64,000 nt of DNA from Candidatus Kapaibacterium sp. (GTDB lineage: Bacteria > Bacteroidota > Ignavibacteria > Kapaibacteriales > UBA4661): positions 29,152-93,151 of the forward strand of contig JALONG010000039.1 of NCBI GenBank assembly GCA_025455065.1, written 5' to 3'. Below, in pieces: positions 7,419 through 32,088 of the stretch. Below the pieces are notes generated by a model. That model was not told the DNA's origin. It was given only the letters and a program-made list of their open reading frames with translations, and ran no database searches. A program made the position numbers and the translations under genes. Position 1 is the stretch's first letter; every line of letters begins with the position of its first letter.

Positions 7419-7512
7419 ACCAATTTACGTTGAGAATTGTGCATTGTTTTTTTATACTTTTCTCTGGAAACAGCATAAATACTCGCACAGACAAGAATGT
7501 CTGTGCCGCTGA
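7415..7512 (+). repeat. ~97-bp dispersed repeat containing the 22-bp palindrome (second copy at 19102-19199)
   Basis: Same sequence as the 19.1 kb copy with few substitutions. Confidence 0.9.
7485..7506. repeat. REP-like 22-bp palindrome
   Basis: GCACAGACA-AGAA-TGTCTGTGC. Confidence 0.9.
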
Positions 7513-9176: not shown

Positions 9177-9198
9177 GCACAGACAAGAATGTCTGTGC
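9177..9198. repeat. REP-like 22-bp palindrome
   Basis: GCACAGACA-AGAA-TGTCTGTGC. Confidence 0.9.
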
Positions 9199-17920: not shown

Positions 17921-17968
17921 CCTTTTTTACATTTGAATTTTATTGGTCTCAAACGCTAGTCAAAACTA

Positions 17969-18152
17969 TGGGCTTTAGCCCAAGACTTTAGTTCCTACAA
18001 ACGTTCCAGAAGGTCGTAAATATCGGTGTGTAATTTGATGTTTGTAGATAGCGAAGTCGCTAAACAAAGCGAGGTATGCCAATATTGTTCACGATAAGGC
18101 AACCAAAAAGGACTTTCAGTCCTCTTCAAACCTCTGCACTTTCAGTGCAGAG
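17969..18152. ncRNA. cluster of four compact perfect hairpins (candidate structured RNA or repeat element)
   Basis: TGGGCT-TT-AGCCCA (17969-17982), TAGCGA-AG-TCGCTA (18049-18062), AGGACT-TTC-AGTCCT (18109-18123), CTCTGCACT-TTC-AGTGCAGAG (18132-18152); no plausible ORF. Confidence 0.45.
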
Positions 18153-18242
18153 TGGTTCAGTTATGGTTCTTTGGTATGATGGGGATTCAGGCATATAGTT
18201 TTCGTTCTTGGACGGGAGCGGAAATTTTTGTGTATTTGTAGC

Positions 18243-18761
18243 ATGAAACATCTCAGCGTCCATATTGATCGCTTAACTAATTCCCTGCGCAATGCCATTA
18301 CAGGTGATGTGTTTACGACAGAATTATACAAAATCACCGCGAAAGATAAGCCTTTGTTGCGGAAAGATTGGGTTTTTGATTGGGTAAAAGAAATGAACAA
18401 TACTGAGGCTGAGGTGTGGAAATTGGTTATCGTCAATAATCCAAGTGTGATACAAGGTTTGATAAGTATTTCCGATAGAGACGACCATATTTTTGTCAAT
18501 TTGGTAGAAAATGCTTCCTACAATATCGGCAAAAACAAGGTGTACGAAGGTGTTGGTGCAAACTTATTTGCTTTTGCCTGTCAGCGTTCTTTTGCAAACG
18601 GCTATGACGGAGTTGTTTCGTTCATCGCTAAAAGTACGCTTATTGCTCATTATTCCGCAATGCTGGGTGCGAAACGACTGGGTTCATCACTCCGCATGGT
18701 TATAGATACGCCACAAGCCCGAAGCCTCTGTGAGCGCTATTTTCCTTCATCTCAACAATAA
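18243..18761 (+). CDS. GNAT-fold N-acetyltransferase-like protein
   Basis: GVGANLFAFACQRSFANGYDGVVSFIAKSTLIAHYSAMLGAKRLG resembles GNAT motif A/B; 172 aa. Confidence 0.6.
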   Translation: MKHLSVHIDRLTNSLRNAITGDVFTTELYKITAKDKPLLRKDWVFDWVKEMNNTEAEVWKLVIVNNPSVIQGLISISDRDDHIFVNLVENASYNIGKNKVYEGVGANLFAFACQRSFANGYDGVVSFIAKSTLIAHYSAMLGAKRLGSSLRMVIDTPQARSLCERYFPSSQQ

Positions 18762-19101: not shown

Positions 19102-19199
19102 TTATACCAATTTACGCTGAGGATTGTGCATTATTTTTTCAATGCTTTTCTCTGGAAGCAGCATAAATACTCGCACAGACAAGAATGTCTGTGCCACTG
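19102..19199 (+). repeat. ~97-bp dispersed repeat containing the 22-bp palindrome (second copy at 7415-7512)
   Basis: TTATACCAATTTACG[C/T]TGA[G]..TTGTGCATT..TTTT..CTTTTCTCTGGAA.CAGCATAAATACTCGCACAGACAAGAATGTCTGTGCC. Confidence 0.9.
19173..19194. repeat. REP-like 22-bp palindrome
   Basis: GCACAGACA-AGAA-TGTCTGTGC. Confidence 0.9.
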
Positions 19200-19290: not shown

Positions 19291-19500
19291 ATGCAAACCA
19301 CACTCCCCAAGCCTTCCAAAGAACTGCTTATTGAAGCATTAGCAGAAATGATGCGCTCGCGGCGCGAAGAATTTGTTGAGCTTCTTACCGAAGCATTGGA
19401 AGATATAGCCCTCGGCACCGCTATTGTCGAAGGACGCAAGGATGATTTTGTTAGTGAAGAAGAAATACGATTGTTGCTTTTTTCCGATGCAACGCCATGA
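19291..19500 (+). CDS. small antitoxin-like hypothetical protein (69 aa)
   Basis: MQTTLPKPSKELLIEALAEMMRSRREEFVELLTEALEDIALGTAIVEGRKDDFVSEEEIRLLLF; compact, helical, acidic; own promoter. Confidence 0.6.
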   Translation: MQTTLPKPSKELLIEALAEMMRSRREEFVELLTEALEDIALGTAIVEGRKDDFVSEEEIRLLLFSDATP

Positions 19501-19733: not shown

Positions 19734-20075
19734 ATGGCTGAATCGCAACTTTTAGAGAAGATAGATCTAAAGCGGGTTTTGGTACAACCGCTGAGGGAAG
19801 CGCTGTCGCCTGAACGGATTGTGCTGTTTGGTTCGCAGGTGTGGGGAACGCCGGACGCAGGAAGTGACGTGGATATTTATGTTGTTGTCCCTTCATCAAG
19901 TGCAACGCCGCTTGAACGCGCTGTACAAGCATACAAGGCGATAGGAATTGTGCCGTTTGCAATGGATATTATTGTGCAGACCGCAGCAGAATTTGAGCGT
20001 TTGCGGGATGTGCAGGGAACATTGCAACATCGTATAGCAACCGACGGGCGTACTATCTATCAAGTTTGCCCATGA
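19734..20075 (+). CDS. MNT-type minimal nucleotidyltransferase (antitoxin of a HEPN/MNT module)
   Basis: IVLFGSQVWGTPDAGSDVDIYVVV = GSx(n)SDxD nucleotidyltransferase signature. Confidence 0.92.
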   Translation: MAESQLLEKIDLKRVLVQPLREALSPERIVLFGSQVWGTPDAGSDVDIYVVVPSSSATPLERAVQAYKAIGIVPFAMDIIVQTAAEFERLRDVQGTLQHRIATDGRTIYQVCP

Positions 20076-20494
20076 GTCATCCTTTAACGCCCCATGAAGA
20101 GGCAGTCCGCGAATGGCTTATCAAAGCCGATAATGATGCCCGTTCTGCAAAAGCACTTGCAGCATTAACACCGCCGATACTTGATACCGCAGGCTATCAC
20201 TGCCAACAAGCAGCAGAAAAAGCATTGAAAGGATTAATGCTTTTTCACCACCTCTCTTTAACGAAAACACACGATTTGACGCTCCTTGTGGGGAATTTGT
20301 CCGTTGTTGAGCCTCATATCATGGTTTGGCTTCCGGCGGCGCAATATCTCACGCCGTTTGCAACACTTTTCCGTTATCCCGCAGGGGGCGGACATAATGA
20401 CCCGACACCTTCGGAATTTTCCCAAGCATTCCGCGCCGCGACCGATATTATTGGGTTTGTTCATTCTGCATTACCAAGCCATGTTTTGCCATAA
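20072..20494 (+). CDS. HEPN-domain protein (toxin of a HEPN/MNT module)
   Basis: EWLIKADNDARSAKALAA...YHCQQAAEKALKGLMLFH typical of HEPN; RYPAGGGH = R-X6-H; ATGA overlap with the MNT gene. Confidence 0.9.
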   Translation: MSHPLTPHEEAVREWLIKADNDARSAKALAALTPPILDTAGYHCQQAAEKALKGLMLFHHLSLTKTHDLTLLVGNLSVVEPHIMVWLPAAQYLTPFATLFRYPAGGGHNDPTPSEFSQAFRAATDIIGFVHSALPSHVLP

Positions 20495-30207: not shown

Positions 30208-30286
30208 GCACAGACATTCTTGTCTGTGCAGGTTTGTATCCTTAACACCGTTCGCTCATTTCGGACACAGACAAGAATGTCTGTGC
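30208..30286. repeat. REPIN-like doublet of inverted REP palindromes
   Basis: GCACAGACATTCTTGTCTGTGC (30208-30229) and ACACAGACAAGAATGTCTGTGC (30265-30286) in opposite orientation, 35 bp apart. Confidence 0.85.
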
Positions 30287-32008: not shown

Positions 32009-32088
32009 GTGGCACAGACATTTTTGTCTGTGCGGAGCGGTTGATAAACATCATCAATACTTGCACAGACAAAAATGTCTGTGCCACT
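32009..32088. repeat. REPIN-like doublet of inverted REP palindromes
   Basis: AGTGGCACAGACATTTTTGTCTGTGC (32009-32033) and GCACAGACAAAAATGTCTGTGCCACT (32063-32088), near-perfect inverted copies. Confidence 0.88.

Follow-up and report, generated by a model that had tools for sequence, protein, structure and literature searches.

A hairpin cluster in Candidatus Kapaibacterium is very probably a transposase-less IS200-group derivative

What kind of sequence is marked by four perfect hairpins with loops of 2-3 nt, crowded into 184 bp ahead of a protein-coding gene? The question is raised by a 64,000-nucleotide stretch of a Candidatus Kapaibacterium sp. contig (the window, by which we mean the whole of this stretch), where the hairpins TGGGCT-TT-AGCCCA (17969-17982), TAGCGA-AG-TCGCTA (18049-18062), AGGACT-TTC-AGTCCT (18109-18123) and CTCTGCACT-TTC-AGTGCAGAG (18132-18152) follow one another as an earlier note had described them, stems and loops included. 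That note held the cluster to be unlikely from chance, remarked on a conserved loop combined with variable stems, and left the choice between a structured non-coding RNA, a decayed mobile element and an RNA-plus-protein unit formed with the gene downstream. The mobile element is the correct reading, and ends held in common with tnpA-carrying elements now supply its family: with a probability of about 0.94, as judged from sequence comparison, the interval 17944-18161 is a non-autonomous derivative of the IS200 group (IS200/IS605 family) that has no tnpA and is PATE- or MITE-like in its organisation.

Counts of hairpins say little in this matter. Perfect hairpins with a stem of at least 6 and a loop of 2-3 occur 40 times across the window against 41 expected, and a maximum of four within 184 bp was found in 2 of 150 first-order Markov simulations, which makes the clustering mildly unusual. 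A genome scan for the 11-mer GACTTTCAGTC returned four matches, of which L003 and L004, inspected at sites that do not belong to the element family, look like chance occurrences, and the pattern CTTTCAG...TGGTTCAG with two mismatches allowed gave 10 matches against 8 for a reversed-pattern control. The idea that chance is an improbable source of the cluster thus gains little from the counts alone; homology to a dispersed repeat and the kept pairing of the stems are decisive in its favour.

The dispersed repeat emerged from a DNA search of the organism's own genome (5.6 Mb in 131 contigs, 99.5% complete), which holds, besides a partial right end on contig C130, one further full copy, located on contig C89 (71% identity over 224 bp, E 4e-26). 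The copy number is accordingly low, at two full copies and one partial. Among 60 related genomes the nucleotide matches are confined to the genus, where five of the seven other genomes contain copies, and the searched genomes outside the genus lack the element at the nucleotide level. Two blocks align, some 80 bp at the left end and some 60 bp at the right end, on either side of a middle that differs. The left end starts directly after TTTAT in 11 of 12 copies and after TTTAG in the remaining one, amid flanks that are otherwise unrelated; the right end closes with ...AGTGGTTCAGT or a close variant in 13 copies, and the flanks part at once. Five copies with both ends (207-218 bp, across three genomes) are too short for a transposase, and four other full copies, of 207-208 bp, share a core that the window copy does not have. 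The copies adjoin many unrelated genes in either orientation. Two of them, L037 (around 4613) and L040 (around 378-450), are themselves broken by another insertion sequence, and a sequence beside the L040 break recurs, in inverted orientation, in the DNA flanking the full copy at L037.

With the boundaries placed where the flanks diverge, the locus resolves into the following features, all on the + strand:

17939-17943, + strand: target pentanucleotide TTTAT, host DNA directly 5' of the element and putative left cleavage site CL
17944-18161, + strand: the entire non-autonomous IS200-type element, 218 bp, its boundaries given by flank divergence among dispersed copies
17962-17966, + strand: AAAAC immediately 5' of the left hairpin, at the position of the guide GL in IS608; invariant in 12 left ends
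17969-17982, + strand: left-end hairpin (IPL-like) TGGGCT-TT-AGCCCA, conserved in position and with two-sided changes relative to TGCACT/AGTGCA of the intact insertion sequences
18011-18103, + strand: copy-specific core, the site of tnpA in autonomous relatives, holding the non-conserved hairpin 18049-18062; it differs from the core of other full copies
18109-18123, + strand: inner right-end hairpin AGGACT-TTC-AGTCCT, with two-sided changes across copies at 4 of 6 pairs
18127-18131, + strand: CAAAC immediately 5' of the right hairpin, at the position of the guide GR, a role it would have by inference; its AAA is invariant in 13 right ends
18132-18152, + strand: right-end hairpin (IPR-like) CTCTGCACT-TTC-AGTGCAGAG, kept in most of 13 right ends; in the intact insertion sequences one of its pairs is changed on both sides
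18153-18161, + strand: right tail TGGTTCAGT up to the putative right cleavage site, directly beyond which the flank diverges
18243-18761, + strand: neighbouring 172-aa gene ("GNAT-like"), outside the element, conserved in genomes G005 and G007 where the upstream element is missing

The hairpins at 17969-17982 and 18132-18152 lie subterminally at the two ends of the element and on the same strand. The ends themselves, TGGTCTCAAA and GTGGTTCAGT, do not form inverted repeats, and alignment of the copies with their flanks shows no repeat of TTTAT past the right end, hence no target-site duplication. Between the ends there is no open reading frame of at least 50 aa within 17944-18161, tnpA being missing from the element itself. 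The four hairpins of the original cluster do not form one set: three belong to the conserved ends, and TAGCGA-AG-TCGCTA, being part of the copy-specific core, is absent from the other copies.

The ends lead to a transposase in related genomes. The best match outside the window copy itself, a left end at 92% identity in genome G004 (L036), runs straight into a tnpA open reading frame with the Pfam domain Y1_Tnp (PF01797, E 1.3e-38), whose product scores 131.7 bits on the NCBIfam IS200/IS605 transposase model NF033573 (cut-off 55); at another locus of the same genome (L043) the last codons of the same tnpA gene are followed by the right end seen in the window. A protein search of 123 genomes of the order added two intact elements of 566-567 bp (L061 and L062) in another family of that order, the TnpA of each (145 aa) being 73% and 70% identical to the G004 protein and reaching 142.4 and 145 bits, respectively, on NF033573 at the same cut-off. 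Both have the same layout: TTTAT outside the left boundary, then the left-end hairpin (TGCACT-TT-AGTGCA or TGCACT-TCC-AGTGCA), tnpA, the inner and outer right hairpins, the outer one being CTATGCACT-TTC-AGTGCATAG, and TGGTTYAGT up to the right boundary. The organism's own genome, when searched by tblastn with the cognate TnpA, yields nothing, so the window copy is an orphan and presumably immobile now unless a TnpA arrives. As tnpA is absent from the element and a cognate tnpA from the genome, we speak only of a derivative of the IS200/IS605 family, and the descent of the window copy rests on its shared ends, since no tnpA remnant is recognisable in it.

The stems at these ends change in pairs. 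The left stem reads GGGC/GCCC in the window copy and GCAC/GTGC in the intact elements, altered on both sides and still paired; across the alignment 95.5% of its cells are paired, and its covariation score of 0.27 compares with 0.11 for shuffled data, with none of 500 shuffles scoring as high. The two right stems are paired in 85% of cells, carry six pairs with two-sided changes and score above all 500 shuffles, and most of the pairing disappears when the stem partners are shifted. These figures come from 11-12 distinct sequences that are related to one another, a small set in which the covariation supports, rather than proves, the structure of the end stems. The earlier remark on a conserved loop with variable stems was well made: this is the signature of end hairpins of this kind, and the paired changes explain it.

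The host origin of TTTAT is best seen at L039, where the element lies directly 3' of TTTAT inside a gene that resembles adenylate/guanylate cyclases, an assignment made by eye on the TIGDAY motif. At the corresponding codon pair, homologues of the gene in relatives show this pentanucleotide or one like it, and they read on uninterrupted; this one-sided empty site shows TTTAT to be part of the host and the left boundary to be correctly placed. Joined-flank empty sites were sought for six insertions, the window copy among them, and gave no contiguous match: either the flank alignments break off close to or exactly at the element boundary, or rearrangement has altered the locus. The complete empty site thus escapes detection because the flanks have diverged or been rearranged between species. 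At the window site the pre-insertion sequence would have been ...GAATTTTAT joined directly to TATGGTTC....

A route by which such an element could have moved is offered by IS608 and ISDra2, in which a TnpA dimer binds both hairpins on single-stranded DNA and the cleavage sites are recognised by short guides just 5' of the hairpins (PMC5934647). The present element resembles these two in having subterminal hairpins on one strand, in lacking terminal inverted repeats and target duplication, in inserting 3' of a short fixed sequence (TTAC for IS608 and TTGAT for ISDra2, PMC5934647; TTTAT here) and in the Y1 HUH TnpA of its autonomous relatives. By analogy with the same work (PMC5934647), AAAAC at 17962-17966 may serve as a guide. 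Here a dimer of a Y1 HUH transposase, provided in trans, would bind the hairpins of both ends while the DNA is single-stranded, the top strand being the + strand of the window, and its cuts would fall immediately 3' of TTTAT at the left and immediately 3' of ...TTCAGT at the right. A single-stranded circle would be released and the donor resealed, and the circle would then reinsert 3' of another TTTAT.

Within the IS200 group, whose members carry tnpA only, the window copy stands apart by lacking that gene and by having a second conserved hairpin (18109-18123) just inside its right end. The name PATE is used for elements that have both ends and no transposase, and their movement is believed to occur in trans (PMC3119063, PMC7290912). 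The window copy answers to this description save for a complete empty site, which the joined-flank searches did not recover. Like the PATEs of Haloquadratum and the PATE-like element of Halanaerobium, the element has near-terminal palindromes that match those of an IS605-type element, is of a size that leaves out the transposase, lacks inverted repeats and target duplication, and has a longer distance from end to palindrome on the left (25 nt, at which the left hairpin begins) than on the right (9 nt beyond the outer right hairpin) (PMC3119063, PMC7290912). It differs from PATEs in belonging to another phylum, in its unrelated sequence and few copies, and in having the ends of an IS200-type, tnpA-only element.

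Alternatively, the four hairpins could make up a structured RNA or riboregulator gene that works in trans or controls the gene downstream. The RNA folding that the earlier note had proposed does exceed shuffles, paired stem changes would also fit RNA, and some additional function as RNA is conceivable, since in Salmonella the IS200 tnpA transcript is processed into a regulatory RNA (PMC12594629). However, the excess over shuffles is of similar degree on the two strands (z -3.1 and -3.65), a pattern of palindromic DNA more than of a single RNA strand. At fixed element ends these hairpins also enclose an IS200 tnpA, the copies have unrelated genes as neighbours and occur in both orientations, and promoter-like matches are as many as expected by chance. 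Rfam, likewise suggested at the outset, gave no gathering-threshold match in the 64 kb and, on the locus itself, relaxed matches of E 3.7 or worse, so that no family was matched. With the hairpins explained as end structures of single-stranded DNA, the proposal of a structured RNA finds no support, and we regard it as very unlikely. The pairing of hairpins with the "GNAT-like" gene and the small open reading frame downstream, as an RNA-plus-protein unit, is the least probable reading of all: it draws on proximity (91 bp), and it is contradicted by G005, which has both gene and small frame, and G007, which has the gene, all of them lacking the hairpins, an outcome that the earlier note had itself named as refuting. 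Upstream conservation reaches up to the element and excludes it (the last ~30 bases before the start codon are conserved in G005), and other copies of the element occur where the gene does not. The label of the gene is not borne out either, as it has no Pfam match even at E 10, no NCBIfam family and no meaningful match in a PDB sequence search.

A further candidate is a REP/BIME element mobilised by a RAYT (TnpA_REP), like the palindromes GCACAGACA...TGTCTGTGC found elsewhere in the window. The Y1 transposases that move such palindromes share a superfamily with IS200 TnpA, and the organism's own genome holds two Y1 transposase genes, both flanked by other palindromes. The ends of the element, however, match an IS200 TnpA element and neither of these RAYTs. 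The cognate transposases score 24-31 bits on the RAYT model NF047646 against a cut-off of 80, L061 and L062 reaching 30-31 there as opposed to 142-145 on the IS200 model. REP/BIME elements also differ in the subfamily of their transposase, and the element has two distinct ends rather than a single repeated palindrome, is an element-sized unit, and has only 2-3 copies. A RAYT origin is therefore rejected on the transposase scores, its likelihood being slight in the extreme, and a tnpA-less derivative of an IS200-type element remains our reading of the locus.

Several observations concern the surroundings. In G005 (L089, contig C17) a gene that by eye resembles phage head-morphogenesis genes lies upstream of 1526, ahead of the "GNAT-like" orthologue, and the latter together with its small open reading frame may be prophage cargo. 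Further along the window, 19291-19500 encodes a RelB-like antitoxin without an obvious partner, and at 19734-20494 a nucleotidyltransferase is followed by a HEPN-like frame (HEPN by eye), an arrangement resembling the MntA/HepT toxin-antitoxin pair. The REP palindrome GCACAGACA-NNNN-TGTCTGTGC is present in seven window copies against 0.03 expected by chance:

7485-7506, 9177-9198, 19173-19194, 30208-30229, 30265-30286, 32012-32033 and 32063-32084: copies of the REP palindrome

The same palindrome, preceded by GTA, flanks a Y1 transposase situated inside recG. A second Y1 transposase gene (L002, G000:C96, open reading frame 1423-1962) has on both sides a palindromic repeat of another kind, in which GCGGAATAAATTCCGC occurs.

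The transposase inside recG is an observation in its own right. In three genomes of the genus (L125, G000:C58:3-1556; L126, G007:C10:39952-41478; L127, G006:C139:5982-7553) a Y1 transposase domain of the REP-associated type, with its HUH motif intact, is embedded in frame in the RecG helicase, preceded by ...ELKxKATASF and followed by PHIMVMSATPIPRTL. The frames are open (997 aa in G007; the G000 contig starts within recG, with the N-terminal part outside view), and the palindromes at the edges are translated. Close relatives do not have the insertion, namely G001, whose RecG is 98.6% identical to that of G007, and G005, at 97% to G006 (C-terminal parts). The transposase parts are 47-53% identical and the RecG C-terminal parts 83-92%, so the insertions may be independent. 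In G005 the same RecG loop holds another translated repeat-like insertion (...TLLPEGEGQ...SPSGRGLGEG...; L131, G005:C78:61396-62319), which suggests that the loop is a tolerated hot spot for in-frame repeat insertions. A literature search found no paper on a Y1 transposase within RecG. The RecG-embedded transposase is of greater interest than the hairpin element and deserves a follow-up of its own.

As to the history of the element, one might imagine a low-copy family of transposase-less IS200 derivatives that persists although its own transposase has gone from most species of the genus, and that depends for its movement on incoming TnpA, with the covarying second right hairpin modulating recognition; we consider this scenario unlikely. 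The element itself, a newly recognised example of a class already known, is ordinary and of modest biological weight. What had been a cluster of hairpins is now a mobile element with exact ends, a target and a traceable autonomous parent, and PATE-like IS200 derivatives are thereby added to a little-studied bacterial group. The locus also carries a caution: a conserved loop with variable stems in non-coding sequence can be the signature of DNA transposition and not of an RNA gene.
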